From contig NZAC01000014.1 of assembly GCA_002686085.1 (NCBI GenBank), forward strand, positions 1 through 57,117: a stretch of DNA of 57,117 nucleotides, given 5' to 3'. Positions 1,160-23,757 of this stretch are shown piece after piece. Position numbers and translations under genes: made by a program. The DNA is from Roseibacillus sp. (lineage in GTDB: Bacteria > Verrucomicrobiota > Verrucomicrobiia > Verrucomicrobiales > Akkermansiaceae). Below the pieces are notes generated by a model. That model was not told the origin of the DNA and did no database searches. It saw nothing but the letters and a program-made list of their open reading frames with translations. How positions within the stretch are numbered: position 1 is the first letter of the stretch; each line of letters opens with the position of its first letter.

Positions 1160-2344
1160 TTAGCTTCGTCCCGGAAAGGCCAGACCAGAACTGATGGGGC
1201 CCTTGGCAAACTCCAGAAAGTGAAAGCGGGAGCCGAAAAAAGAAGGGTGAGTGAGGGTCTGGAACTGGCCGAGGAATTCCCGGTCTGTTTCGGGGGAGGA
1301 GAGGTTTTGCAGCAACCCTGAGGCTAGATGCACCAGGTAGCTTTCCTGTCGGGCAGAGCCAAGGGAGGTCAGGCCGGCAGCCTGAGCAGCCTCGCCTACG
1401 TGGGTGAAATCAAGATGAGTGGAAAGGTCGCACTCTCCCGGAGCTTCAAGCGGATCTTTCCCGACTTGATGACGGGCGTAGGTCTGCAGTGTGCCCTCGC
1501 AGCGGTCCGGGTGGTAGTATTCGCTACGCTCAAAACCGTAGTCCACCAGAAGAACCACAGCATCCTCGAAGGTTGCGGCCAGTTCCTCTATCAGAGGAAA
1601 GATATTGAGGCACACCTCAGTGGTATAGCCTTCCGGCAGATCCACAGGAAGTTTGGTGAGGTGGTCGCTCAGCAGGCCGTCAGAACAGGGAGACATGGTC
1701 CATGCGAGCTTCTCGTCCTCGAGTCCCACGGACATTTCCTGCCAGGAGCCTCCTGACCAGCGAACGAGGTGCACGGGGAGGGCGTCGAGGACTTCATTGC
1801 CGAGGATGATTCCCCGCTCCGCCTTGGCTTCTTCGGGAGCCGCTACCACCCGGAGGTTCGGCTCTCCGGTGGCTGCGAAGCGGTTGGCAAGGGCCTCACG
1901 CTTGCGGGCGCCGGGTTCGCAGGCGATGTAGTGCAGGGCTTGGTAGAAGGCAGCGTCCTGTTGATGGGTGGCCTTGAGGATGTCGAGTGCAAGGGAGCCA
2001 TCCTCGGGGCCGAGTTCGAGGACGGAAAAGACCTGTGGGTTGCCATGGGCTTCCCAGACCTGACGAATTCTAAGAGAAAGAAGACGGCCGTAGGCGGGAC
2101 CGATACTGACGCTGGTAGCGAAGTCGCCAGTCTTGCCGACTCTGGTGCGGCTTGGATCAGTGTAGTAGCCAAAATCCTCGTGATAGAGGGCTAGCTCCAT
2201 GAAGCGGGAAAACGAGAGTGGGCCGCCCTCCTTGATCATGGGAGCAAGGACATGGAGGAATAGAGGAGTTGCCCCAGTCGGGGAAGACGGGTAATTTCCC
2301 TCGACAGGGGGAGGGTAAGGCCGACTTGGATCCCTTGATTCCAT
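1160..2344 (-). CDS. MidA/NDUFAF7-family SAM-dependent protein methyltransferase
   Basis: A protein of 394 residues of the DUF185/MidA family. In mitochondria the homologue NDUFAF7 methylates an arginine of a complex I subunit; the bacterial target is not generally known. The family signature is visible near the N-terminus: GPLSFSRFMELALYHEDFGY, then the GxxGDFxTS segment (VGKTGDFATSVSIGPAYGRL), the SAM-binding strand VLELGPEDGSLA, and GNEVLDALPVH followed later by LLVDYGFERSEYYHP. I start at ATG 2344; longer reading needs a TTG at 2362. This ATG shares two bases with the start of the divergent penicillin-binding protein. nuoB and nuoC are in the window, which suits a complex I link but does not prove it. 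Confidence 0.85.
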   Translation of the reverse strand: MESRDPSRPYPPPVEGNYPSSPTGATPLFLHVLAPMIKEGGPLSFSRFMELALYHEDFGYYTDPSRTRVGKTGDFATSVSIGPAYGRLLSLRIRQVWEAHGNPQVFSVLELGPEDGSLALDILKATHQQDAAFYQALHYIACEPGARKREALANRFAATGEPNLRVVAAPEEAKAERGIILGNEVLDALPVHLVRWSGGSWQEMSVGLEDEKLAWTMSPCSDGLLSDHLTKLPVDLPEGYTTEVCLNIFPLIEELAATFEDAVVLLVDYGFERSEYYHPDRCEGTLQTYARHQVGKDPLEAPGECDLSTHLDFTHVGEAAQAAGLTSLGSARQESYLVHLASGLLQNLSSPETDREFLGQFQTLTHPSFFGSRFHFLEFAKGPISSGLAFPGRS

Positions 2345-4832
2345 GGCGAAACAGAACACCAAAAACCGACGAAAGCGGCGTTTTTACAAGCGCAAAGGGT
2401 TGTGGGTTTTCCTTCTTCTCTGCATGACCGCTGCGATTGTGGCCCTGAGAATCGCCAATGAACGGCTGGAGCCCTACAAGCAACAGGCGGCGGCGATAGA
2501 CATCTCAACGATTGATGATGTGGAGATCCCCAGCATGATTCTGGACCGGAAGGGCCGGGAGATTGGCCGGATGTTCGTGGAAAACCGGAGTAAGGTTTCT
2601 ATTGAGGAGGTGCCCGAGAAGCTGATCGATGCCCTCATCGCTCAGGAAGATCAGCGTTTCTTTGAGCATAATGGAGTCGACCAGGTCGGGGTGGCCCGGG
2701 CGGTCTGGTTGAACTTTAAGGCCCGGGCGGTGACTCAGGGTGCCAGCACAATTACCATGCAGCTGGCCCGAAATGCCTTCGATTTGAAGTCGGGGGCCCG
2801 CGCTCTTGGGCAGACAGGCATCGAGAGAAAAATCGTGGAGGCCTTTCTCGCTCTGCGGATCGAGCGGCACCTCACGCGTTCGCTGATGGCAGAGTATCCC
2901 GATGAAACGGAGAGAAAGGGTCGCATGAAGAGGGTGGTTCTCGAGTATTATCTGAACCGGATTCCCTTTGGACACGGATACTATGGTGTACGCTCCGCGG
3001 CGTTGGGATACTTTGGAAAGGAGCCCATGGCGCTTACAGTCGAGGAGTGCGCCTCGCTGGTGGCCTGTGTAAAAAACCCAACTCTGATTTCTCCCCTTTC
3101 CAATCCAGAGAGGAATCGCAAGGCACGGGATCACGTGTTGAACCGGATGCTGACCGAGGAAATGATCACAGAAGCGGAATGGATGCGGCTCTCCAGCAAG
3201 CCCGTGGTGGTCAACCCTAAACCCTTACGGAAGGGGAAGTCGCACCTTTATGAAATCGTCGATGATATCGCCCTCGAGAAAGTGGGTATTGAGGCGATGT
3301 CCCGGGGCGGATTCAGAATTCATACTACAATTGACCGGGATGTGCAGGAGCAGGCCGAGCAGAGCTTGCGGGAGCATCTGGACGTCATCGAGGCCAGGAC
3401 GGGATACAGCCATCAGAAGCGCAGGGACTTCGAGCCCTCTCCAGGTAAAGTGCCCGCCTACGTGCAGGGCGCTGCCCTGATGATCGATCCGGATACGGGA
3501 AACGTTCTCGCTCATGTCGGAGGCAGGGACTACGCGCATTCCCAGTATGATTTTATTGAGCTCGGGAGGAGGCCATTTGGAACAGCCTTTCTACCAATGG
3601 TCTATGCAGCTGCCTTGCAGGATGGAGGTCACCCCTGCACCACTGTCCGCGATGAGGCAATGGATGCGCGGGCGGTTGCGGTAGGTGCTCAGGAGGGGAT
3701 TCTCGGGGAGTGGGGTATGGAAGTTACGAATCCGCATTATGAGGGGCGAATTTCCAGTGCGCGGGCGCTGTCCTCTTCCAAATTGGCCGCCACGGTGCGG
3801 TTGGGGCGCGAGTTGACCCTTGCGCGGGTCGCGGCGCAAGCCAGAGCATTTGGTCTTCCGGTGGGCAGAGAAGATCTCCTTACCCGGATGCTTCTCGGTC
3901 ACGACTCAGTTTCACTTCGGGAAGCGGTTGGGGTTTATGCCGCGATTTCCCGTAAGGGTCAGCTTCCCGGTAAACCCCGCTACATCGAGCGTATTGAGAA
4001 TGGAAAAGGAGAGGTGGTTTACAAAGCGCCTGCTCCCGCAAAGTCCGGGGTTGAGGCCGCATGTGACGAGATCACGGCCTATCAGATTCACGAAATGCTG
4101 AGAAAATCCATGATCGATGGAAACCTTGCAGAGGAGGCCTCAGCCATTGCCTCCCCCTCTTTTCCGGGAGCGGTTAAGACCGGAACCACGCATGATTTTG
4201 CCGACGGATGGAGCCTTGGGTATAACGGTAGAGTAGTCCTGGGAGTCTGGGTAGGGTTTCATCAGGGAAAAAAAGCGGTCTACGAGAACGCTTTTGGAAA
4301 ACATCTCACTTTTCGTCCATGGGCTGAGGTGATGAATATCGCTGATCAGCATTATCCTGGTAAAGGGATTGAGGTCCCCGAAGGATTGACGCCTGCGAAG
4401 GTTTGCCGTCATTCCGGGTTGCTGGCAACCCGCTACTGTTACGACTCGGTGGAAGATACACAGGGAAATCGAAGCTTTCGTTATGCGGGCAAGACCGAGT
4501 GGCTGCGTGCTGACCGGATAAAACTTGGATTATGCGACCTACATGGGAAGGGGGGTATTGGAACCAATGAGGTTCTGAAGCGCTATGGACCTCTGGCGAT
4601 GGAATCAGGTGACCAGCAGCTTCTCCCGGTAGCTCCGATTCTTCCTCAGGCGAGTGGACTAATTGGAGAAGACCCCTACGATGCCGAGTTGGTGAGTCTG
4701 GAGAACATTCAGGGGGAATTGAGCATTTTTGTGAAGGGTCCCAGTTTGCTACTGGAGACTGAAATTCTCGGCGATGAAGATGGGGGGATCCCGCTTCGGC
4801 GCCCGAAAAAGATCGAGATCAAATCAGATTGA
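2343..4832 (+). CDS. Class A penicillin-binding protein with intact glycosyltransferase and degenerate transpeptidase site
   Basis: An 829-residue inner-membrane protein: basic cytoplasmic start, one transmembrane segment (about residues 19-36), family 51 glycosyltransferase domain, then a transpeptidase domain. The glycosyltransferase motifs are complete: EDxxFxxHxG (102-111), GxSTxxxQ (133-140), RKIVE (162-166) and YLNRIPFGHGYYG (203-215). It should polymerise lipid II. In the transpeptidase half, the nucleophile motif SxxK reads T-A-F-L (414-417) in the context RRPFGTAFLP, and SxN reads S-K-L (479-481); only KTG (612-614) remains. The acylation serine and general-base lysine are thus missing, and I infer that the domain is a pseudo-transpeptidase. 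The start ATG overlaps that of midA on the other strand. Its stop is 34 bases before the next gene. Confidence 0.9.
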   Translation: MAKQNTKNRRKRRFYKRKGLWVFLLLCMTAAIVALRIANERLEPYKQQAAAIDISTIDDVEIPSMILDRKGREIGRMFVENRSKVSIEEVPEKLIDALIAQEDQRFFEHNGVDQVGVARAVWLNFKARAVTQGASTITMQLARNAFDLKSGARALGQTGIERKIVEAFLALRIERHLTRSLMAEYPDETERKGRMKRVVLEYYLNRIPFGHGYYGVRSAALGYFGKEPMALTVEECASLVACVKNPTLISPLSNPERNRKARDHVLNRMLTEEMITEAEWMRLSSKPVVVNPKPLRKGKSHLYEIVDDIALEKVGIEAMSRGGFRIHTTIDRDVQEQAEQSLREHLDVIEARTGYSHQKRRDFEPSPGKVPAYVQGAALMIDPDTGNVLAHVGGRDYAHSQYDFIELGRRPFGTAFLPMVYAAALQDGGHPCTTVRDEAMDARAVAVGAQEGILGEWGMEVTNPHYEGRISSARALSSSKLAATVRLGRELTLARVAAQARAFGLPVGREDLLTRMLLGHDSVSLREAVGVYAAISRKGQLPGKPRYIERIENGKGEVVYKAPAPAKSGVEAACDEITAYQIHEMLRKSMIDGNLAEEASAIASPSFPGAVKTGTTHDFADGWSLGYNGRVVLGVWVGFHQGKKAVYENAFGKHLTFRPWAEVMNIADQHYPGKGIEVPEGLTPAKVCRHSGLLATRYCYDSVEDTQGNRSFRYAGKTEWLRADRIKLGLCDLHGKGGIGTNEVLKRYGPLAMESGDQQLLPVAPILPQASGLIGEDPYDAELVSLENIQGELSIFVKGPSLLLETEILGDEDGGIPLRRPKKIEIKSD

Positions 4833-9921: not shown

Positions 9922-12330
9922 TTAGCTCTCCGGTGATTTCCAGGAAGGGAATTCTTTCTGGAGTTGCTCCCTGATTCGGCTCGCCCTTTCCAGATTGCCG
10001 CCCTTTTCCATCGCTTTGGCTGCCCGGAAGAGGCCCAATGGTTTGATTTCCCGATCATCGATGAACAGTTCGGACGCTTTGAGATAGTTTGCAGCCGCAG
10101 TCTCGTAGTCCATGCGGTGCATACCGATATCTGCGATGGCAAGATAAAGCCCAGCCTGAACCGTTCCCGAGGGGTTCAGGGCAATCCCCCTCCCGGCTGA
10201 AGAATGCGCCTCTTCCCATTTTTGGAGTCCAATCAATGCATGGCTCTGGTCGAGAAGAGCATCCGCTTTCCAGAAGTCTTCCTGATCGAGGGAGAGGAGA
10301 ATGGCGAGGGCTGCCGCAGCCCCTTCAAAGTCCCGCATCTCAAGGCGGGCCTTTGCGAGATGACGCCATACGAGAGTATCGGTCTGGGTAGGAGCTTCCG
10401 GGGAGGTTGCAAGCCCGAGGAAACGGTTGGCACCGTCATAATCACCCTTTGAAAATCGCTCTAGTCCGAGCCACGTGAGCATGCGGGCTGGGAATTGCTG
10501 GTGTGGAGCATCTGAGAGAAGTTGATCTACTCCCTCCTTGAGTTGGTCGGAGTCCAGCAGGGAATATGCTGAGAGTACGATATGTACTCCAGCTGGCTCG
10601 CGGTAGCGCTCAGGAAGGAGATCTCTCGCCTGCTGGAAGTGGTTTATCGCTCTTGTCCACTTCTGCTGCTTGTAGCAACCCCACCCCATCCAGTATTGCG
10701 CGTCAGCCCTCGACTTCCGATCGAGCTCTGATCCGGGTAAGGCCAAAAGTTTCTCGTAGCTGGTGATCATCTCTGGCCAACGCTGCTCATCCCGGTGAAT
10801 TTTTCCACAATACTGGTATGCGAATGATGCAAGATCGGTTTCTGGTGTGCGATCAAGGAGGTTTTGAAGATCCTTCAGGGCAGATTTCCGGTCACCTATC
10901 TTAATGTAGGCATATGCGCGCTTGGCGAGGGCCTCACTAAAACGTTCGTGATCAGGAAATGTCGCAAGGAAGCTCGAGAGGTTCTGTGCGGCTCGGCCAT
11001 ATTCACCTGTATCTGCAAGGCACCAGCCCCGCTTGAAGTAGACATCGGCCCTCATTTCCACGGGCAGGGCGGAGGGATTGACTTCGTTGTAGGCGGCTGC
11101 GGCCCGGCTTCCGTCTGCCTCGTGAAAAAGAGTTTCTGCCTTCATGAGGAGTGCTTTGTGCAGCCACGGACTCCCGAGATTTTCTTTTCCATAGGCCTCC
11201 GCGAAGGCGTCGACCTGAGTCGGTATGTTTGCGCCGTTAATCCTGTAAAAGCAGTGTAGCCGTCGATAGCTTGCCTCAAAGCCGATCTTCCTGAGGGGCT
11301 TGGGCTTAACACTCAGGGCGAGACGCTCGGAGTTGAAGAACTGTGCAATCGCTTTTTTTTGCCGGTCCAGAGCAACGAAGGATCGGCCCGCGATCAGGGC
11401 GATCTTTGCGAGAACACTTCGCTCACCGAGGTATTCCCCCGTTTCGAATGCTTTGATCGCTTCCTCGTATTGCTGTCGGACAAAGCACATCTCCATGAGA
11501 GCGAGCTGTGCCCGGGCCTTGTATCTGGGTTGGATTCCGGTGGAGCTGATCGTGCTGTCAAGAAATCCTCGGGCCTTGGCCTCCTGCCCAAGTTTGGCGG
11601 CAGAGACCCCTGCAGCAAGAAGGGCCTGAGCGCGCTCTTGTGGGGCCACTGATGGAATGAGAAGCGCTTCGAAAGCTTCAAGAGCCTGCTCGTGTCTGCC
11701 TCCACGGGCGTGGAGCTCGCCCATCGCCAGGCGGGCGTAGTCGCGGTAGGGGTTAGCAGGATCTTTGACGATGTCTCCAAGGCGTGCAATCGCATCCTCG
11801 TTTTTGCCGGCCATCTGGAGGCAGCGGGATTCGTAGAAGACGGACTTGTGGGCCAGTTCGTCTTGCCCTGCTTCCTTTGCCGCGACTTTGAAGTAGGGTG
11901 CCGCACCCAACCAATCCTGACGATTGTAAAGCTGGGCAGCCAGACGGTAGGCGGAGAGAGCGACCCACTCGCCGGTTCTGAAGCGCTGTATGATCGAAGA
12001 AAACCCCTGCTCGGCTCCATCTCTGTCACCGGTGAGAAGAAGAGCCATGCTAAGTTTGTAGCTGGCGTTCTGGACCAGTGCCTCCCCTGGCCTGTCGGAG
12101 AGATACTCTCGAAAGAGGGGGATGGACATCCTAAACGCCCTTCGTTTGTCGTCGAGATCCCGGCTTTTCTCAGCGTAATTGAAATACCGATTGGCGCGGT
12201 GGTAGACTTCCGAATCCGTTCCGGGCGGGCTGACAATCCTGGGAACCTGAGCCGGAATCAGGTCAATCCCAGCGAGCTGGATCAAGATCACCACAAGGAG
12301 CCGGATGACAGATTTATTTACAAGGTGCAC
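9922..12330 (-). CDS. Secreted TPR-repeat protein, second of a tandem pair
   Basis: An 802-residue protein made almost wholly of helical TPR-like repeats after an N-terminal signal peptide (hydrophobic residues 7-25, cleavage near IPAQ). GTG 12330 is used as the start. It is clearly paralogous to the upstream gene: the pattern SAYRLAAQLYNRQDW-LGAAPYFKVAA here matches AAAYQRALEHYKVEQY-AEAEPLFEIAA there, and flanking repeats stay in register. The gap between the two genes is 36 bases. Upstream on the same strand are exbD and exbB, so the product probably works in the periplasm with an ion-driven inner-membrane motor, as YbgF/CpoB-type TPR proteins do in Tol systems. That role is inferred from order only. 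Confidence 0.8.
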   Translation of the reverse strand: MHLVNKSVIRLLVVILIQLAGIDLIPAQVPRIVSPPGTDSEVYHRANRYFNYAEKSRDLDDKRRAFRMSIPLFREYLSDRPGEALVQNASYKLSMALLLTGDRDGAEQGFSSIIQRFRTGEWVALSAYRLAAQLYNRQDWLGAAPYFKVAAKEAGQDELAHKSVFYESRCLQMAGKNEDAIARLGDIVKDPANPYRDYARLAMGELHARGGRHEQALEAFEALLIPSVAPQERAQALLAAGVSAAKLGQEAKARGFLDSTISSTGIQPRYKARAQLALMEMCFVRQQYEEAIKAFETGEYLGERSVLAKIALIAGRSFVALDRQKKAIAQFFNSERLALSVKPKPLRKIGFEASYRRLHCFYRINGANIPTQVDAFAEAYGKENLGSPWLHKALLMKAETLFHEADGSRAAAAYNEVNPSALPVEMRADVYFKRGWCLADTGEYGRAAQNLSSFLATFPDHERFSEALAKRAYAYIKIGDRKSALKDLQNLLDRTPETDLASFAYQYCGKIHRDEQRWPEMITSYEKLLALPGSELDRKSRADAQYWMGWGCYKQQKWTRAINHFQQARDLLPERYREPAGVHIVLSAYSLLDSDQLKEGVDQLLSDAPHQQFPARMLTWLGLERFSKGDYDGANRFLGLATSPEAPTQTDTLVWRHLAKARLEMRDFEGAAAALAILLSLDQEDFWKADALLDQSHALIGLQKWEEAHSSAGRGIALNPSGTVQAGLYLAIADIGMHRMDYETAAANYLKASELFIDDREIKPLGLFRAAKAMEKGGNLERASRIREQLQKEFPSWKSPES

Positions 12331-12366
12331 GTTGAAAGCTGAGAGCGTATTTGTGATGGAGAGAGA

Positions 12367-14826
12367 TTAATCACGGGAATCTGCCTGGGTCGTCTTACGG
12401 AGTTCCTCGAGCCGCACCCGGTAACCCTTCGCGATCTTCAACGAATCGGGAGTGTCCTTGAGTTTGAGGGCGCTGATGGCGTGGCCAAGTGCGATCACAG
12501 CGATCTCTGGATCCTTGCTGTAGAGTTCTACGACTGGAACGAAGTACTGTGTCGCGGTGTCAGGATCACCAAGAGCCATGGCGATTTCTCCCAGTTGCAG
12601 GCGTGCCCTTGGGTTAAGATTTCCCTGGGGTTTCAGAGAAAGACAGGCCTCGGTGGCATTCCTCGCCTGTTCTGTGTTCTCGAGAGCAAGGTGGGCTCGC
12701 CCTATTAGAAAATGAGCTTCCGCTTTGCGGTAGTCGTTTTCCTCAACTTGCAGGACGATATTCAGTGCTCGGAGTGACGCCTCATGATGGCCAGATTCCA
12801 GAGCGCTTCCTCCAGCAGCGCGCCAAGTGCGTAACTTGGTCTCACTGGGCTCATCGAGAGTAATCGCGCGGCTCAAATACTTCCAGGCCTCATCGTATTT
12901 ACGGTCATCATGCAGGGCGTTACCCAGCCATGCGAAGACAGGTCGTGGTATTTGTTCGTCCCTGTAATCCCTCAGGAGAAGGTCGAGTTCCTGTTGGAGT
13001 TCTTCTTTTTCCTGCAGGTGGTAGTATGCAAGCGCGAGGTGTAAGGTGGAACTCCGGTGCAGCGAGTCAGTTTTGACCTCCCGTGCCTGCTGGAAGGGCA
13101 TGATGCATTCAGCGAATCGGTCAAGACGATAGAGGGACCAGCCGAGCCAGAAATGAGAAGTAGCCTGTTTTGCGTTCGCCCTTTCCGGGAAATCTGCGAG
13201 AAGTCTCAGGTGGCATTGTGCAAAACTGTCGAGGGCTCCGAGGCGGACTTTGCCATCCTCGGACGTATCGATTGTCTTCTTATAAAGAATGGCCTTCTGT
13301 GCCCATGCGTATTCCTTTTGCGCGCTCCGGGCCGTCTTCTTGATCAGCCGGTCGAACTCCTTGTGGGCTGAGTTCGTATCTGCTTTTTCCAGAAAGATTT
13401 CCGCTCGATTCACAATTGCGTTATTGATCTGAGGATGACCGGGATGTTCTGTGATGAAGAGATTGAAGGTGTCCAGGGCCGCTTCCTTGTTTCCTGCCCT
13501 CAGCTGTGCGTCAGCCATTCTGTAGAGTAACCCCGGATGGTTCTGTGCGGCAATATGGGTGAGGTCGATGGCTTGGTAGGTTGTCACAGCCAAGGCGAAT
13601 TGATCGCCTTCGTGGTAGCTTTCCGCGAGCATGAGGCGGGCGTTGTGAATACGGGGATCGTTCTCATATTTCTTCCCAAATCGTTTGAGAAAGGCCTGGA
13701 TCTGTTGGGAATGGCCTTCGCCCTTGGACCGATATTCCCGGGAAAGAACGAGGTAACTTGCCTCTAGAGCGGTTAGGTCGTCAGGTGAAATTGAGGCGAG
13801 CTTTCGCAGGAGAACCGTTGATTTCTCTTCCTCGCCCAGAGCGGCATAGGACTTGGCTGCAATTTGAAGTCGTCTGCCACGGGGCTCTTTCTTGAGCGGG
13901 TAATCGCCTTGCTCGTAGTAGGTGATCACATCATTGTGCCTGGCTTCTTGGGAGGCTTCACTCATCAGGGCTAGTTGTGACTCCCCATGCCACTGCTCCA
14001 GTTCCGGGGTAACCAGAATATCTTCGAAATACTTCCGGGCAAAATTCCGTTTGCCGAGTTTTCGTGCGAGTTGGGCACACTGCAGGATTGCATCCGCCCG
14101 CGTCTTTATATCCGTAGACTCTGAAAGGTGGAGGAAATGGGCAAGTGCCTCCTCGTTCATTCCTTCCTGCAGGTAGTGGTGTGCGAGAACGCGTTCCGCC
14201 TTGGGCTGATAAGGAGATCCGGTATCAGCGAGGATGGCTTTCAGGGCGGAAACGGTCTTTTGTTTTTCCTCTAGTTTTTCAAAACAGAGCGCGCGGATAT
14301 ACAATGCACGATGACGGTAGCTAGCCTCGTCAGATTCTGAGGCTGCGATCTCGAAAAGGGGTTCTGCTTCTGCATACTGCTCTACCTTGTAATGCTCCAG
14401 GGCCCTCTGGTAGGCGGCGGCGCCGACCAGAGCTCCTGTCCTCTTCAAGGTAAGAACTTCATCCAAGCCTGTGAGGTAGTCCTCCCGGTTGTCGAGTTTC
14501 TGGTAGCAGATCGCTCGATAATATACGGCCTTGATTGCATCCGGGTGATCTCTGAACCGGAGGTAGAACCGGTTGAATTGTCGAGCAGCAGCGCTGTAAG
14601 TGTCATTCCGGCGACGCAGGTTTGTAGTCTCTCCTGCTTCCCGATAGGATTGCAGTGCGAGTTCAAACAAATCCTTGGATGGATCTGCCTTCAACGGTTG
14701 GTTCCCGGGCAGTAGAGAGGGGCCTGTTGATGGGCCTTGATCCTGACTCCTTCCTTCCCCTGCGAGCACGAGGGTTACAATCAGCCCAGCCTGGATCAGG
14801 GCCGAGAGGTTGTGGAAACTGCGCAT
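12367..14826 (-). CDS. Secreted TPR-repeat protein, first of a tandem pair
   Basis: From ATG 14826 the product has 819 residues: a signal peptide (SALIQAGLIVTLVLAGEGRS) followed by about 20 TPR-like helical hairpins, with recognisable units such as GNKEAALDTFNLFITEHPGH and YRLDRFAECIMPFQQA. A TTG at 14886 would add 20 residues with two extra prolines ahead of the signal and is less likely. It lies 80 bases downstream of exbD and 36 bases upstream of its paralogue. Low-complexity charged surfaces suggest a scaffold. No catalytic domain is visible. Confidence 0.8.
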   Translation of the reverse strand: MRSFHNLSALIQAGLIVTLVLAGEGRSQDQGPSTGPSLLPGNQPLKADPSKDLFELALQSYREAGETTNLRRRNDTYSAAARQFNRFYLRFRDHPDAIKAVYYRAICYQKLDNREDYLTGLDEVLTLKRTGALVGAAAYQRALEHYKVEQYAEAEPLFEIAASESDEASYRHRALYIRALCFEKLEEKQKTVSALKAILADTGSPYQPKAERVLAHHYLQEGMNEEALAHFLHLSESTDIKTRADAILQCAQLARKLGKRNFARKYFEDILVTPELEQWHGESQLALMSEASQEARHNDVITYYEQGDYPLKKEPRGRRLQIAAKSYAALGEEEKSTVLLRKLASISPDDLTALEASYLVLSREYRSKGEGHSQQIQAFLKRFGKKYENDPRIHNARLMLAESYHEGDQFALAVTTYQAIDLTHIAAQNHPGLLYRMADAQLRAGNKEAALDTFNLFITEHPGHPQINNAIVNRAEIFLEKADTNSAHKEFDRLIKKTARSAQKEYAWAQKAILYKKTIDTSEDGKVRLGALDSFAQCHLRLLADFPERANAKQATSHFWLGWSLYRLDRFAECIMPFQQAREVKTDSLHRSSTLHLALAYYHLQEKEELQQELDLLLRDYRDEQIPRPVFAWLGNALHDDRKYDEAWKYLSRAITLDEPSETKLRTWRAAGGSALESGHHEASLRALNIVLQVEENDYRKAEAHFLIGRAHLALENTEQARNATEACLSLKPQGNLNPRARLQLGEIAMALGDPDTATQYFVPVVELYSKDPEIAVIALGHAISALKLKDTPDSLKIAKGYRVRLEELRKTTQADSRD

Positions 14827-14906
14827 GAGAGGGAAGAACTGTAACCTTGGACCGGGAAAGATCGGCGGAAAAATGCTTAACTTCAAGCATTCATGGCCAA
14901 TTAAGG

Positions 14907-15317
14907 TCAGTTAGGTCTCCGAGTAGCGAAGGAAATATTCCAGATACCCGCCTCTTGGCAAATATCGATCACTCCCATGAGCGTCTGGTAAGTGATCTCC
15001 CCGTCGCCCCGCAATCTCACCGGCTGGTTCTGATAGACCTCAACGATTGCACGAAGTTTAGTGAGCAGTTCCTGTTCGGTGAGAATCTCGCCATTGATTA
15101 CCAGTTCGCCGGTTTGACGGATATTCACATTGATCTCACTGATGGCCCGGGTTTCCTCCTTGCCCTGACTGGAGGTCGGAACCTTTACCTTGCTGTCCTG
15201 TTCCGAGCGGGAGAATTGCCATGTTACGAGAAAGAAAATGAGGAGCAGAAAAACGATATCAATCATGGGCGCCAGTTGAATGACGCTCTCGGGAGGTTTT
15301 GGAGACTTGAATTTCAT
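14907..15317 (-). CDS. exbD: ExbD/TolR-family biopolymer transport protein
   Basis: A 136-residue protein with the ExbD/TolR layout: short cytoplasmic start, one transmembrane helix with the motor aspartate in LAPMIDIVFLLLIFFLV, then a periplasmic domain (INVNIRQTGELVINGEILTE...VRLRGDGEITYQTLMGVIDI). The aspartate carries protons in the ExbB-ExbD and TolQ-TolR stators. exbB lies 21 bases upstream; two TPR genes follow downstream. No TonB or TolA is adjacent, so what the motor drives is open. I use ExbD rather than TolR because the TolB/Pal part of a Tol operon is missing here. Confidence 0.93.
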   Translation of the reverse strand: MKFKSPKPPESVIQLAPMIDIVFLLLIFFLVTWQFSRSEQDSKVKVPTSSQGKEETRAISEINVNIRQTGELVINGEILTEQELLTKLRAIVEVYQNQPVRLRGDGEITYQTLMGVIDICQEAGIWNISFATRRPN

Positions 15318-15338
15318 TCCGCAAGTGACCGCCTTGTA

Positions 15339-16181
15339 TCACGCGCCTGGCAGGTCCGACTGACCGGGACGGGCGGGAGCCGGTCTTTGACTCCGGGGTA
15401 TCTGGTATGTATCTGCGGGTTCTGGCGCCGGCGCTTTCTTCTCAGGTCGGTAGCGTTCAGACTGCTGGAACTGGGATCCCAGAAGCGCGAGAAGGTGCGT
15501 TGCTGCAGCCTCCAGCTCGGTGAGGTAGCGTTGAACCCGACCCCGAAATACGGAGTAGAAAATCATGGCGAGGATTCCAATGGAGAGTCCGCTCGCAGTA
15601 GTTACGAGGGCCTCAGCGACCCCGCCGGCAAGTTTCATCTGGCGCACTACTTCAACGTTTCCAGTGTTAATTTCGAGAAAGGCTCGAATCATGCCGAATA
15701 CGGTTCCCAGCAGGCCGACCATCGGCGCGATTGCTCCAATATCCGCCAGGTAGCTGATGCGTTGATTGAGGGTGCTGGCTTGGCGGGACCCCTCGGCCTC
15801 TGCCACATCCCGAATCTCGTTAAATTTCGCCTCCGGGTTCTTTGTAACAAAATCGAAGGTTTTCTGGGTAATACGAGCAATGCATTCGCCTCTCCGGTGG
15901 GCATACCCAGCCAGACCAAGGTAGTCGCGCTTTCGAATAAGGCTCTCTGCAACGCGCATGAATTGATCATTGACCACGTTGCGACGATGAATCGTGAAAA
16001 AAAGAAGAAGGATAAGGACTAGGGCACCGATAGAGAGGGCTCCAAGTGGCCACATCATCAGTCCTCCCTCCTTGATGATTTCGAGGATGTTGACTTTCGT
16101 TGTATCCCCTGGCTCTTCTGCTCCCAGAGCGGCGCCAGTGGCTGCCAGCGAGGAAAGGACAAAGAACAGAGTGCGGTTCAT
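15339..16181 (-). CDS. exbB: MotA/TolQ/ExbB proton-channel family protein with signal peptide
   Basis: A 280-residue protein. From ATG 16181 it begins with a signal-peptide-like segment (RTLFFVLSSLAATGAALGA) before the first membrane helix of the channel domain (MMWPLGALSIGALVLILLLF), a feature of many ExbB proteins. The conserved domain follows: ADIGAIAPMVGLLGTVFGMI and GVAEALVTTASGLSIGILAM, the two helices that form the pentameric channel with ExbD. The C-terminus is a short Pro-rich cytoplasmic tail. Starting at 16268 would add 29 residues including three Cys in a non-hydrophobic segment, which I reject. It leads the four-gene minus-strand operon with exbD and two TPR genes. Confidence 0.93.
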   Translation of the reverse strand: MNRTLFFVLSSLAATGAALGAEEPGDTTKVNILEIIKEGGLMMWPLGALSIGALVLILLLFFTIHRRNVVNDQFMRVAESLIRKRDYLGLAGYAHRRGECIARITQKTFDFVTKNPEAKFNEIRDVAEAEGSRQASTLNQRISYLADIGAIAPMVGLLGTVFGMIRAFLEINTGNVEVVRQMKLAGGVAEALVTTASGLSIGILAMIFYSVFRGRVQRYLTELEAAATHLLALLGSQFQQSERYRPEKKAPAPEPADTYQIPRSQRPAPARPGQSDLPGA

Positions 16182-16378
16182 GAAGCACCACGATTGTATC
16201 TGCTCGATATAAACGTTCAAGCACGGGTGCTGCTGTGCACACGCATAATCATGCCTCAAATCGAGCACTCAGGGGCTTCAGGGTGCTGATTTTGGTATTC
16301 TTGCTGGTAATACGCCCTGCTTGTCTTGATGTCGTCTCTTTGCGTTGGCTCTTGTTTGCGCTAAAATACCGAAGGGAG

Positions 16379-17935
16379 ATGACAGCGCGTCCAGACATGA
16401 GAGCCCGGCTTGGGGATATCCCGCACCAACCGGGTGTGTACCTCATGCTGGACCGGCTTGGATCAGTGATCTACGTGGGAAAAGCCCGTGACCTCCGGAA
16501 GCGACTGGGAAACCATTTCATGCCCTCGAGGAAGCAGAGTGCAGATCACAAGACCCGGGCTCTCCTTGACGCGATATGGGATTTTGAGGTGCATCTTGTT
16601 CGAAATGAGCAAGAGGCACTGTTGTTGGAGGGGAAGTTGATCAAGCAGTATCGGCCGAGATATAACGTCAGCTTCCGTGACGATAAGCGCTTTCTGCTCG
16701 CGAAGATTAATCCTTCGGACCCTTGGCCCCGTTTCGTTCTGACCCGCCTTAAAAAGGATGATGGCGCGCGCTATTTTGGTCCGTTCGCTCACTCAGGTGC
16801 TTTGCGCGGGACAATCGCATGGTTAAACAAGGAGTTTGGGCTTCGGAGTTGCCGGAGCAGAGAACCGGGGGAAAAAGAACATAAGCATTGCAGCGCGGAC
16901 GTGATACGGAACTGCAGCGCTCCTTGTATCGGAAGTATCAGCCGGGAGGCCTACCTTGAACAGGTGGAGCAGGCGAGTGCCTTGCTGGAGGGGCGGGGGA
17001 GGAGAGAACGTTTGAAGTCTCTGGTCGAAGAGATGGAGAAAGCGGCGGCCCGTATGGATTTCGAACGGGCGGCCCGATTAAGAGATATCGTGCAAAATCT
17101 GGAGCGGACGCTCAATCCGACTCGACAGTTTTCAAGAGGCCGGGGAGTTCCTACCACCGTGAAGCCAGTAGATGATCTGGCGGAGCTGGCAGAACTGCTC
17201 CAACTTCCGGCTTCACCAACTGTGATGGAATGTTTCGATATTTCCAATGTCAGTAGCAGTCATATCGTCGGCTCAATGGTACGGTTCGTTGACGGAGTTC
17301 CGGACAACCAGAATTATCGACGCTATCGAGTAAGAACAGTTGAGGGACAAGATGACTTTGCGAGCATGGCGGAAGTAATTAGACGGCGCTACGCTCGTAT
17401 CCTTCAGCAGGGAGCGAGGGCAAACCCTGAGGCGGTGGATAGCCAGGAAAGTGTCATGGAGTCCATGCGCCGCCTCGCACAAGAGGGGAGGGCACCTATT
17501 ACCCTGCCCGATCTTGTGATCGTGGATGGGGGAAAGGGTCAGCTGAGCTCGGCAACGGGCGAGTTACAGCGCCTTGGACTTCACGAATTGCCGATTATTG
17601 GACTGGCAAAGCGGCGAGAGGAGATTTTTCGGCCTGGGGAAAGCAATCCCCTCGTGCTGAGTCATGAGCTTGGCGCACTCAAACTCCTTCAGCGAATTCG
17701 CGATGAAGCCCACCGCTGCGCCAATAATTATAACGAGCTTCTATTTCGCAAGCGAATGAAGGAGTCCCTACTGGACGATTGTCCCGGTATCTCTCCAAAA
17801 CGGAAGGCTATTCTTCTTGCAGAGTTTGGCTCTGTGAGCCGGATTCGTGGAAAAAGCGCGGAAGAGATTGCTGTCCTTCCGGGGATCTCTCTGCGCTCGG
17901 CCGAGGCCATGCTGAAGTGGCTGAACCAAGAGTAG
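16379..17935 (+). CDS. uvrC: UvrABC excinuclease subunit C, shortened between the UVR motif and the RNase H fold
   Basis: UvrC makes both incisions in nucleotide excision repair. The 518-residue product has a GIY-YIG nuclease (GVYLMLDRLGSVIYVGKARD, 19-38), four Cys at 158, 171, 179 and 183 with spacing close to the Fe-S cysteines of E. coli UvrC, a UVR motif (about 213-243), the RNase H-like nuclease starting at ECFDISN (284-290) with VDGGKGQLSSA and RDEAHR, and a C-terminal helix-hairpin-helix pair (PGISPKRKAILLAEFGSV). About 40 residues separate the UVR motif from ECFDIS; in E. coli it is about 160. All catalytic acids seem present. ATG 16379 follows GGGAG directly; the frame extends to 16235 but that part is membrane-like and unlikely. 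Confidence 0.93.
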   Translation: MTARPDMRARLGDIPHQPGVYLMLDRLGSVIYVGKARDLRKRLGNHFMPSRKQSADHKTRALLDAIWDFEVHLVRNEQEALLLEGKLIKQYRPRYNVSFRDDKRFLLAKINPSDPWPRFVLTRLKKDDGARYFGPFAHSGALRGTIAWLNKEFGLRSCRSREPGEKEHKHCSADVIRNCSAPCIGSISREAYLEQVEQASALLEGRGRRERLKSLVEEMEKAAARMDFERAARLRDIVQNLERTLNPTRQFSRGRGVPTTVKPVDDLAELAELLQLPASPTVMECFDISNVSSSHIVGSMVRFVDGVPDNQNYRRYRVRTVEGQDDFASMAEVIRRRYARILQQGARANPEAVDSQESVMESMRRLAQEGRAPITLPDLVIVDGGKGQLSSATGELQRLGLHELPIIGLAKRREEIFRPGESNPLVLSHELGALKLLQRIRDEAHRCANNYNELLFRKRMKESLLDDCPGISPKRKAILLAEFGSVSRIRGKSAEEIAVLPGISLRSAEAMLKWLNQE

Positions 17936-19834: not shown

Positions 19835-21847
19835 CTACATGTTTGGCAGCTCGATAAAGCCTTCCAACTTGCGAATACGCGTGGGGTGACGCATCTTCCT
19901 GAGTGCTTTGGCCTCAATCTGCCGGATCCGTTCGCGAGTCACCTGAAATTGACGACCCACCTCTTCAAGAGTCCGACTGTAGCCATCCTTTAGTCCAAAG
20001 CGCTGCTCAAGGACTTCCCGTTCCCGCTCCGTAAGAGTGTCGAGAACTTCGTTGATCTTATCCTTCAGCATGGAGAAGCCAGCTTCCTCCATCGGGTTTT
20101 CCGCGGTCTTATCCTCAATGAAGTCCCCAAAGCTTGTGTCATCACTGTCTCCCACAGGAGCCTGCAGCGATATTGGTTGCTGCGCCATCTTGAGGACGGC
20201 TCGCACTCGTTCCACGGGAAGGTGAATCTCCTCAGCGATTTCATCGGGGGTAGGTTCTCTCCCGTACTCCTGAACCAGCTGTTTCTGGACCCGCATGAGT
20301 TTATTGATCGTTTCAATCATATGAACCGGGATCCGAATGGTCCGGGCCTGATCGGCGATCGAGCGAGTGATGGCCTGACGAATCCACCAGGTCGCGTAGG
20401 TAGAAAACTTGTAGCCGCGACGGTATTCAAATTTTTCCACCGCTTTCATCAGGCCCATGTTCCCTTCCTGAATCAGATCAAGGAAAGAGAGCCCTCGGTT
20501 GGTGTACTTCTTCGCAATAGAGATCACGAGGCGGAGATTAGCTTCTACCATTTCCGTCTTGGCTTTGTGCGCTTCACGCAGCCAGTGATTCAGGTCTCCA
20601 GTGGTAGCTTCAAATTGCTCCTGATCATGCCAAGAGTAGAGTTGTAGCTCCTTCAGTTTGGTTTCGAACTCTTTCTTATCCTTGAGCCTTGAGGTAAGCT
20701 TACGTTGGTAACGCCAGATCTTGGTCTGCGTTTCACGGACTTCCTCGCAAAAGTCCTCAATGACCTTCTGCTTGAAGTAAAAGCGGTTGTAAAGGCGCGC
20801 AAGGGTCGTGAGATTCTTATCGAGGCTAGTCAGGAGCTTCTTTTTTCCCCGGACAGACTTGGCACTTAGTTTTTTGAAGATCTTGCTGGTGTCTTCATGG
20901 AGGTTGCGTACTTGATCGCAGAGCTTTGGGAGCGTTTTCATGTAGCGCTCGCGGCTCTCGATCTTCTTGTCGAGAATGACCCGGTCGAAGCGTTCCTTAC
21001 CCCGCTGAAGCTTGTCTGCAAGGGCCAGGTAACTATCGGCCGTGAATCCAAACTTATGGAGAAATTTCTGTACGCAAATCTCGGCATCCTCAATCCGCTT
21101 GGAAATTTCAACCTCTTGCTCCCGGGTCAGGAGCGGCACCTGCCCCATCTGCTTCAGATACATACGGACCGGGTCATCGAGAATATCGAGCTTCTGGTCC
21201 TTCGTTTCTTCCGCTGCATCATCTGAAGATTTCTTATCTTTAAAGCGATCGACCTCTGAGGAATCGATGATGTTGAATTCCATGTTACGCAACCGATCGA
21301 GGATGGCAGCAACATCGGTCGGGTCGACGAGATCCTTGGGGAGGATCTCGTGGATATCGTCATAAGTGAGGTAGTCTTGTTCCTTGGCGAGCTTGATGAG
21401 CTCCCGCATCTTTTCCTGAATCTCAGGTGTATCGATGCGACTCTTTCCTTTCGGGAGCTTCTTTTTTGGGGTGTCAGTAGTTCCTGGAGAGTCTAAAGCT
21501 TCCGCTTTGGTAGCGACCTTCTTGGTCGCTTTCTTGGCTACTTTTTTAGGGGCTTTCTTAGCTGCCTTTTTGGTGGCTTTCTTGGCTGCTTTTTTGGTGG
21601 CTTTCTTGGCGACCTTCTTGGTGGCTTTCTTGGCGACCTTCTTGGCTGCTTTCTTGGCGACCTTCTTGGTGGCTTTCTTCGCTACCTTCTTGGTGGCTTT
21701 CTTGGCGACCTTCTTGGTGGCTTTCTTGGCGACCTTCTTGGTGGCTTTCTTGGCGACCTTCTTGGTGGCTTTCTTGGCTACCTTCTTGGTGGCTTTCTTG
21801 GCGACCTTTTTAGCGGATTTCTTAGACGCGACTTTTTTTTTCGCCAT
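19835..21847 (-). CDS. rpoD: Primary sigma factor (sigma-70, RpoD) with histone H1-like Lys/Ala-rich N-terminal tail
   Basis: The 670-residue product directs RNA polymerase to housekeeping promoters. Residues from about 12 to 112 are nearly pure repeats of an eight-residue unit, KKATKKVA, like bacterial histone H1-type tails. After a linker come a region 1.1-like helical part, region 1.2 ([22 protein letters not shown]), region 2 ([20 protein letters not shown], then [20 protein letters not shown]), region 3 and region 4 ([17 protein letters not shown] and [19 protein letters not shown]). A second run of basic residues sits in the non-conserved region before region 2. dnaG lies 107 bases upstream on the same strand, the dnaG-rpoD half of the classical macromolecular synthesis operon; rpsU is absent. 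The tail probably adds non-specific DNA affinity. Confidence 0.97.
21514..21814. repeat. Tandem 24-base repeats inside rpoD
   Basis: About 12 copies of a 24-base unit of the type GGTGGCTTTCTTGGCGACCT plus four bases (plus strand), some identical, some with a changed codon. They encode the Lys/Ala tail of RpoD on the minus strand. All copies stay in frame. Near-identical neighbours suggest recent copy-number change by slippage or unequal recombination, so tail length may vary between strains. This is not a CRISPR: there are no spacers. Confidence 0.95.
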
Positions 21848-21954
21848 GAGCCTGTTAGGAGTAGCAGGGATCCAGATACAGCAATCCCATTATAGCAAGC
21901 TGGAGGATCATCCCCCAGAAGCAGGCGGGACTCTTCTTGAGGTTTCACATGAGG

Positions 21955-23757
21955 TCAAGGACTTTTGGCCTCGGAGCGGATTCTTTGGAGTTCGGTAATC
22001 CGCTCCATGATTGCCTTTGAATCGTCATCGCCGAGCTCGGGGCTTTTCAAGCGTGCAGCCAGAGCGCCCAGCTCCTGTAAAATGCCCTGCTCAGCCAGTA
22101 TGCCAAGAATCTCGGTGGCAGCCGTCAGAGGAGCGGCCGGTGTGGGCTCCTCGAGTAAGGTGAGTAAAGTGGCCCGATCCCCGGCAGAGAGACTTTGGAG
22201 AAAGGTATTTACTGCCGCTGGGTTTGGGACATCGGGGCGAGTGCTGAGAATGTTTCGCAGCAGAGCCTCGCCTTCACGACCTTCTGCCCCAATCAGAACC
22301 TGTTCAGTTTGGTCACATAGAAAGTCCAGAACTTCGTGGGACTGCAGGGCGAGAGCCGCGAGGACTCCAAGCTCCCGGTCAACTGGCGTTGATTCGACGA
22401 TGATCGGATCATCCTTCTGGTCGCGTCGGCGGCTTGGCCGCTTTGCGGTATCGACAACAGCCTGACGAATGCCATCCGGACTAAGACCGAGACGGGTGGC
22501 TACAAAATTGATCGATGCCTCCTGAGCGTTTTTATCCGAGACTGCGTGAAGCATCGGGGAGAGCTCTCGTACTACGCGTGCCTTGGTGCCTGGATCATCG
22601 AGATTATTTTCCTCTCCGAGATATCGCAGGCGATAGTCAAAAAATTCCGAAGATTGTTCGAGGATACTTTGAAACTCGTCTGGGCCTCTCGATTTGACAA
22701 GAGAGTCGGGATCTTCTCCCGGAGGCATGGTGGCAACTCTGACATCCATACCCAGCGCCGCCATTTCTACAAACGCCTTGGCCGCGGCGTCGTGCCCGGC
22801 AAAGTCGGAGTCGTAACAGATTACGACCTTGTCAGATCCGGTGTAACGCTTCAGCAAACGAGCATGCTCGTTCGTGCACGCCGTTCCCTGGGTGGCGACT
22901 GCATTTTTGACGCCAGCTTCATGGCACGCGATCACGTCAAGCTGCCCCTCGCATAGCACGGCATAGTCCCTCATATGCCGGATAGCCTTGTGCAGGCCGA
23001 AGAAGACGTTGGACTTTTTGAAGATGGGGGTCTCGGGAGAGTTGATGTATTTTCCGCCTCCCTGTTCTTCCCGTAATTTCCGACCGCTGAAGGCGATGAC
23101 ATCGTCACGTTCGTTGTGTATTGGAAACATCAGGCGGTCTCCAAAACGAACCCAGAGTCCGGAGCGTGGGTTGTTCTCCTCTCTGAGCTTGGTGATACCC
23201 GAATGTAATAATTCTCTCCCGGTGAATCCTGCGTCCCGCGCCCAGTCCAGGAAGATATCCGTATTTCTGGGCATCCATCCGATCGCCCAACGGCCTGCCA
23301 TCTCTCGATCATACCCGCGGGACTTGAGATATTGGCGGGCATGCTCTGCGCCCGGATCCTCGAGTAGCAGAGAATGCATGAAGCGTGCCGCCTGGTTGTG
23401 GAGGAGCTTCAGGCGACTCAGGCGCCGACGCCTCCGATCTTCCTGGGGGTCATACTCCCCCTCCTCAATCGTGATGTTGGAGCGAGCGGCCAGCTTTCGT
23501 AGGGCTTCCGGGAATGGAAGGTTCTCATAGGCCATCACAAATCCCACTGCGTTCCCTCCCTCGCCACAACCGAAGCAGCGATATGACTGTCTTCCAGGAC
23601 TGACATTAAAGGAGGGAGTCTTTTCGTTGTGAAAGGGACAGTGGGTCTTGAAATCTGCGCCTGCTCGCTTCAGGTCGAGGCCATACGATGCTATGAGCTC
23701 CACAATGTCCGTCGCTCCAAGGACTTGTTGAACGGTTTCATCGGGGATGCGTGGCAT
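21955..23757 (-). CDS. dnaG: DNA primase DnaG
   Basis: A 600-residue primase, which synthesises RNA primers at the fork. The N-terminal zinc-binding domain is complete: THCPFHNEKTPSFNVSP and YRCFGCGEGGNAV. The RNA polymerase core with the Toprim fold follows, with VLCEGQLDVIACHEAG and the acidic ICYDSDFAGHDAAAKA. The C-terminal part, from about residue 430, is helical and poorly conserved, as expected for the helicase-binding domain. It is 107 bases upstream of rpoD. ATG 23757 has a C-run before it and no Shine-Dalgarno sequence; divergent transcription with the NfeD gene starts 114 bases away. Confidence 0.97.
   Translation of the reverse strand: MPRIPDETVQQVLGATDIVELIASYGLDLKRAGADFKTHCPFHNEKTPSFNVSPGRQSYRCFGCGEGGNAVGFVMAYENLPFPEALRKLAARSNITIEEGEYDPQEDRRRRRLSRLKLLHNQAARFMHSLLLEDPGAEHARQYLKSRGYDREMAGRWAIGWMPRNTDIFLDWARDAGFTGRELLHSGITKLREENNPRSGLWVRFGDRLMFPIHNERDDVIAFSGRKLREEQGGGKYINSPETPIFKKSNVFFGLHKAIRHMRDYAVLCEGQLDVIACHEAGVKNAVATQGTACTNEHARLLKRYTGSDKVVICYDSDFAGHDAAAKAFVEMAALGMDVRVATMPPGEDPDSLVKSRGPDEFQSILEQSSEFFDYRLRYLGEENNLDDPGTKARVVRELSPMLHAVSDKNAQEASINFVATRLGLSPDGIRQAVVDTAKRPSRRRDQKDDPIIVESTPVDRELGVLAALALQSHEVLDFLCDQTEQVLIGAEGREGEALLRNILSTRPDVPNPAAVNTFLQSLSAGDRATLLTLLEEPTPAAPLTAATEILGILAEQGILQELGALAARLKSPELGDDDSKAIMERITELQRIRSEAKSP

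Follow-up and report, generated by a model that had tools for sequence, protein, structure and literature searches.

A 57,117-nt stretch of the genome of a marine Roseibacillus sp., a relative of Akkermansia (assembly GCA_002686085.1, contig NZAC01000014.1, positions 1 to 57,117; the whole stretch is called the window here and its genome G000) carries an operon in which genes for an ExbB/ExbD motor pair are followed by genes for two giant exported proteins built of tetratricopeptide repeats (TPRs). Our survey covered 288 genomes, all within Verrucomicrobiota, and the ExbB-ExbD-TPR order is kept over much of this phylum, which excludes chance as its cause. We give an even chance to the reading that the operon encodes a proton-driven envelope motor that is specific to Verrucomicrobiota and differs from both Ton and classical Tol-Pal, with the TPR superhelix as scaffold or adaptor, a function that we infer. 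Its conservation over the phylum, a separate branch of motor proteins and neighbours involved in cell division and cell-wall synthesis together make a dedicated cell-envelope machine probable. The genes are the following.

15339..16181, minus strand: ExbB/TolQ-like protein of a five-subunit motor, 280 amino acids (aa), N-terminal signal peptide, PF01618 (E 3e-28).
14907..15317, minus strand: ExbD/TolR-like motor protein, 136 aa, PF02472 (E 1.3e-28), with aspartate D20 in its transmembrane (TM) helix.
12367..14826, minus strand: TPR-A, exported giant TPR protein, 819 aa from an in-frame ATG, Pfam TPRs, duplicate clade A.
12367..14886, minus strand: longer start alternative of TPR-A, 839 aa from a TTG.
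9922..12330, minus strand: TPR-B, exported giant TPR protein, 802 aa, Pfam TPRs, clade B.

Open reading frames (ORFs) and Pfam matches bear out the four same-strand genes, with their sizes, that a sequence-only reading of this DNA had proposed. Its signal peptide on ExbB and its two exported TPR proteins of 819 and 802 residues agree with the signal-peptide-like N-termini visible in ExbB, TPR-A and TPR-B, and a crude heuristic finds such N-termini in about 138 of 164 orthologues. It was also right that no TonB, TolA, TolB or Pal gene lies in the window interval 9922-16181; elsewhere, the genome has an unlinked TonB and four OmpA-domain proteins. Since the gaps between the four genes measure 20-36 nt, a single operon is likely. 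The best structural matches of ExbB in the PDB are TolQ/ExbB, and ExbD matches a PDB ExbD (E 6.5e-11). Across 14 orthologues, the channel threonines of ExbB (Thr160 and Thr195) and D20 of ExbD are invariant. By its domains, channel threonines and TM aspartate, the pair is a predicted proton motor of the ExbBD/TolQR/MotAB type.

An orthologous ExbB was found in 96 of the 98 genomes of the window's order. Of these 96, 87 have the TPR gene downstream in the same orientation and five have it at another place; in the remaining four the search did not find it, but one of them (G018) carries a diverged TPR next to ExbD (L068). In other lineages of the phylum, ExbD or ExbB adjoins a TPR gene at about 34 of 40 sampled loci. 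These figures come from inspection of neighbours, used instead of the count of TPR matches (76/288), a lower bound for which three candidates per genome were scored. The median ExbD-TPR spacing is -4 nt, an overlap of 4 nt, so the two genes are probably translationally coupled. There is a single ExbD in the window and at nearly all orthologous loci. As read from sequence, what is conserved is ExbB-ExbD plus a single giant TPR. The tandem giant paralogues that had drawn attention to this DNA are present here, but they do not define the system, as most lineages have a single TPR; of the four-gene order, ExbB-ExbD-TPR is widely conserved and the second TPR is an Akkermansiaceae duplication. At one locus (L297, in G242), ftsK, an HTH_25 gene, pgsA, ExbB and ExbD form a complete series, and no TPR was recognised downstream.

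This linkage bears on whether the TPR, though co-transcribed with the motor, acts independently of it in the periplasm, which we find hardly credible. In G064, G067 and G069 the TPR gene does lie away from ExbBD, as such independence would allow. However, the linkage with overlapping genes extends over much of the phylum, the TPR is retained even when unlinked, and ExbB-ExbD and TPR are jointly absent from G015 and G029.

TPR-A and TPR-B consist of TPRs over almost their full length (Pfam TPR_6, E about 1e-20), with helices starting some 15-40 residues past the signal peptide. AlphaFold2 models of both are all-TPR solenoids of about 20 helix pairs (mean pLDDT 88 for TPR-A and 92 for TPR-B), in which no beta-sandwich was seen. 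Foldseek and VIA-align return generic TPR solenoids. A TonB-like membrane-anchored transducer was rejected for the TPR proteins, as their N-termini resemble cleavable signal peptides and no conserved TM histidine is present. Also rejected were the identities MamA, BamD and PorW/SprE of the type IX secretion system, whose matches fall under their cut-offs (70.7 bits against 250 for the PorW/SprE NCBIfam equivalog).

In Campylobacter, the TPR superhelices of PflA and PflB scaffold MotAB stators (PMC12222027), and the window's TPR proteins might likewise array many ExbBD units for surface motility or another supramolecular machine. The likeness lies in two periplasmic proteins of about 800 aa, a TPR superhelix and a stator partner, and a Campylobacter jejuni periplasmic-scaffold chain comes sixth among the Foldseek matches (E 1.7e-11, root-mean-square deviation 14.9). 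Its TM-score of 0.26, however, is what any long TPR solenoid would give; PflA/PflB are flagellar and serve a MotAB stator, the window models have no beta-sandwich, most lineages have a single TPR, and no motility genes are linked to the operon. We consider such a stator array improbable.

A tree of 60 TPR proteins places a single old duplication inside Akkermansiaceae, with both copies kept in at least five genera. The clade A protein adjoins ExbD. The window's genus and g6 have the clade B protein in tandem, and in g9 and g12 it is relocated; in g9 it retains the neighbours that it has in the window (an antiporter, a zinc-ribbon protein and a class A penicillin-binding protein, PBP). Coordinates indicate tandem pairs in g1, g6 and g8, and recent independent pairs occur at L185 and L211. 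Single-TPR lineages usually match TPR-B more closely than TPR-A. In the window genome, the second TPR probably took a subdivided role after the duplication.

The motor proteins also stand apart. A tree of 36 ExbB proteins unites those of the present operon type, from Verrucomicrobiales through the lineages with linked ftsK, in a single clade (support 100/99). Outside it fall TonB-operon ExbBs, the ExbB2 of clusters of the TtpC type, the window genome's paralogues C47a and C47b, a type with two ExbD genes (C34, and L227 and L228 with a vWA protein) and the ExbB and TolQ of E. coli. Among the sequences compared, some, including Ton-linked ones, have long branches, which leaves deeper joins unsure. 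The window genome has six MotA_ExbB loci, that of the window and five others.

This separate clade weighs on the possibility that the present ExbBD powers the unlinked TonB of the genome, with the TPR proteins as accessories like TtpD2 of Vibrio TonB2. The genome's one TonB has no linked motor, and TonB is frequently unlinked from its motor (PMC12204202). TonB_C occurs in 75 of the 76 genomes with a strong TPR match, compared by hand. In Vibrio vulnificus, TtpD2, a TPR protein ending the tonB2 operon, is required for TonB2 iron uptake, and the ttpD2 gene is essential in Vibrio TonB2 operons (PMC6957404). The co-occurrence was nevertheless rejected as proof of a Ton role, because the two parts dissociate in relatives. 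The 1.5-Mb genomes G018 and G030 carry a dedicated ExbB-ExbD-TonB operon besides their present-type ExbB; in G018 a TonB-dependent receptor lies beside the Ton operon, and the present-type ExbB has its own ExbD and TPR. G029 no longer has ExbB-ExbD-TPR, yet its TonB persists, with the gene surroundings that TonB has in the window genome. Genomes of family f9 have up to 18 TonB genes among the matches listed, yet no TPR. From these cases, the operon is probably not the Ton motor. Its motor proteins are alike to those of ExbB-ExbD-TonB operons, but its ExbB does not group with theirs, TonB is neither linked here nor obligatorily co-retained, and the neighbours are ftsK and PBP genes, not receptors. 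The Vibrio operon resembles the present one in having a TPR gene in an ExbB-ExbD operon (PMC6957404), but TtpD2 has 425 aa and is encoded with TonB2 and TtpC, and the window operon has no TtpC-type long ExbB, ExbB2 or TonB2. Clusters of the type TtpC-ExbB2-ExbD-TonB are present in the phylum, in a separate ExbB clade. On balance, a Ton accessory is unlikely. The sequence-only reading had named two grounds for giving up its proposal. One was an order not kept in related genomes, which the conservation of ExbB-ExbD-TPR over much of Verrucomicrobiota speaks against. The other was an ExbBD that serves a TonB elsewhere with no co-occurring TPR; the genome does have a TonB, but the phylogeny and the dissociation in relatives contradict such an arrangement.

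It has also to be weighed whether the operon is a true Tol-Pal system whose CpoB is giant and which has diverged too far to be recognised. CpoB combines an N-terminal trimerising coiled coil with a short TPR domain, whereas TPR-B is all TPR over 802 aa. The NCBIfam YbgF model matches the TPR above its cut-off, hhalign aligns it with CpoB of E. coli over 95 columns (95%), tolQ and tolR are the best named matches of the motor proteins, and PBP and ftsK neighbours would be compatible. However, tolQ scores 82.8 bits against a cut-off of 221 and tolR 63.7 against 127.3. The CpoB alignment covers the repeats alone, and the YbgF match was set aside as a sign of CpoB orthology, since nothing but TPR repeats matches. 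TolB_N appears in nine of the 288 genomes, always as a weak match, and was not found in the window genome; neither TolA nor Pal is linked to the window motor. We give this alternative little credence. Judged on these sequence features, the operon fails to qualify as classical Tol-Pal. It would share with Tol-Pal-CpoB/PBP1B a motor driven by the proton-motive force (PMF), a periplasmic TPR partner and a link to a class A PBP (PMC4458516), but it has no linked TolA, TolB or Pal, and its TPR proteins have about 800 aa against 263 for CpoB. The ftsK and PBP neighbours fit the earlier suggestion of a Tol-like envelope role, and the sequence-only interpretation as a whole is supported in part.

A cluster of the PVC group with a TPR gene, one tolQ-like gene, two tolR-like genes and a vWA gene was reported in 2025, in work by Williams-Jones et al. 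that described this kind of vWA force transducer (PMC12204202). It shares with the present operon an ExbB/ExbD motor and a TPR gene, and in several lineages a vWA transducer with an S-x3-H motif follows the present operon too. In the published cluster, however, there are two ExbD and the TPR gene precedes ExbB, whereas the present type has one ExbD followed by the TPR gene; the ExbB clades are separate, and the window genome has no vWA transducer. Its two-ExbD arrangement belongs to a separate, paralogous operon, to which L227, L228 and perhaps C34 correspond. Earlier work gives partial notice of a related motor cluster that contains a TPR, and the present operon is probably little-studied. 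That the motor was undescribed, as first proposed, holds in part, given this cluster and TtpD2 in Vibrio TonB2 (PMC6957404).

The gene after the TPR differs between lineages. In other classes, six loci that were viewed (L233, L299, L304, L306, L307 and L309) have, directly after the TPR, a vWA protein of about 600 aa whose TM helix has an invariant S-x3-H (S33/H37), as in TonB and TolA; coordinates indicate further such loci. Counting unlinked cases, this protein occurs in 93 of 95 other-class genomes with a strong ExbB against 7 of 29 with a weaker one. In families f8 and f12 (Methylacidiphilales and relatives), an OmpA-domain protein follows the TPR at 6/6 loci; it has 334-358 aa, with a histidine in its TM helix and the OmpA domain at its C-terminus. 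Transducers may hence be swappable while the motor-TPR core stays. In several lineages (L226, L224, L225 and L308), the TPR gene is followed by genes for an FHA-domain protein and an FtsH-like protease.

On the side of the neighbours, ftsK lies upstream of the operon at 12 of the 40 other-lineage loci, in six families, mostly together with a RodZ-like HTH_25 gene and pgsA. At the Akkermansia loci (survey genus g3 looks like Akkermansia), a PBP with a transglycosylase domain lies downstream of the TPR on the same strand in 20/20 cases, with a gap of 24 nt at L067. Because the E. coli TPR protein CpoB connects PBP1B with the Tol motor (PMC4458516), the arrangement suggests an analogous TPR-PBP link.

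Put together, proton flow through an ExbB5-ExbD2 motor would move ExbD, as inferred from the family. The exported superhelix of about 20 TPRs could dock on the periplasmic part of ExbD or on a transducer, acting as scaffold or adaptor, and its conservation suggests that it may be an obligatory periplasmic partner of the motor. The neighbours point to a connection of the motor with peptidoglycan synthesis and outer-membrane constriction, which the TPR would provide as CpoB does between Tol and PBP1B.

Several observations weigh against this envelope motor. A literature search returned no interaction, phenotype or localisation for the operon. The vWA transducer with S-x3-H has no match in the window genome and is absent or weakly matched in the window's order, and no OmpA-type transducer lies inside the window operon. 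A TM-histidine OmpA protein encoded elsewhere (G000:C22:66899-68191) has an architecture like that of the Methylacidiphilales transducer and is a candidate; as a proven orthologue it was rejected, the significant alignment being confined to the OmpA domain and an unrelated control lipoprotein scoring higher. In the window genome, the transducer would be either unlinked, with this protein as candidate, or dispensed with. The PBP gene of the window is convergent and some 5 kb distant, and the ftsK and PBP syntenies, each coming from one part of the phylum, may reflect descent. Lastly, the C47b locus with its TolA/TonB-like partner could, on weak grounds, be the true Tol equivalent.

More tentatively than for the envelope motor itself, we envisage a further general class of PMF-driven machine in the envelope, a third one after Ton and Tol-Pal and widespread in Verrucomicrobiota, in which the giant TPR is the invariant partner of ExbBD, the transducer is exchangeable (vWA, OmpA-type peptidoglycan-binding or none) and proton flow is coupled to wall synthesis at the division site; this wider view is possible rather than probable. 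In a phylum where the TolB domain is near-absent, the operon provides a testable candidate for the coupling of inner-membrane energy to outer-membrane constriction: it is widespread, even a 1.5-Mb genome has kept it, and ftsK or PBP genes are linked to it. For such tests, a transposon mutant library of Akkermansia has been reported (PMC12418764).

Two further genes form the context of the operon in the window.

2343..4832, plus strand: class A PBP, near TPR-B, PF00912 (E 1.3e-51) and PF00905 (E 2e-9); synteny shared with L278-L280, L284 and L286.
16235..17935, plus strand: uvrC, divergent neighbour and not a machine part; the order uvrC< ExbB> recurs at many Verrucomicrobiales loci.

The other motor loci that were met are of several kinds. 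L092 (G000:C22:24000-36000), from another ExbB clade, has a TPR gene (1108 aa ORF), ExbB, ExbD and two PD40 beta-propeller proteins, each with a single N-terminal TM helix and a TolB-like propeller without TolB_N. A third TPR-motor locus, L095 (G000:C34:35000-48000), comprises ExbB, two ExbD, a TPR (999 aa) and a protein of 322 aa; it has orthologues in G018 (L260) and G029 (L262), and it joins L227 and L228, the vWA-linked type, with moderate support (93/81). At L094 and L261, ExbB-ExbD occurs with a protein of 407 or 361 aa that has a TonB/TolA-like TM helix and a C-terminal domain kept between genera, with no Pfam match, a possible Tol equivalent; the 407-aa protein of C47b was rejected as TolA, the similarity being weak. 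At L096 (G000:C54:1-9000), a 440-aa MotA/ExbB protein bears a zinc ribbon at its N-terminus; after it come two coiled-coil proteins of 266 and 381 aa, each with a single TM helix. Elsewhere in the window, an RpoD-type sigma factor (19835-21847) carries a long N-terminal extension of lysine/alanine tandem repeats (KKVAKKAT), and this repeat stretch also yields a spurious ORF on the opposite strand (21435-21998).

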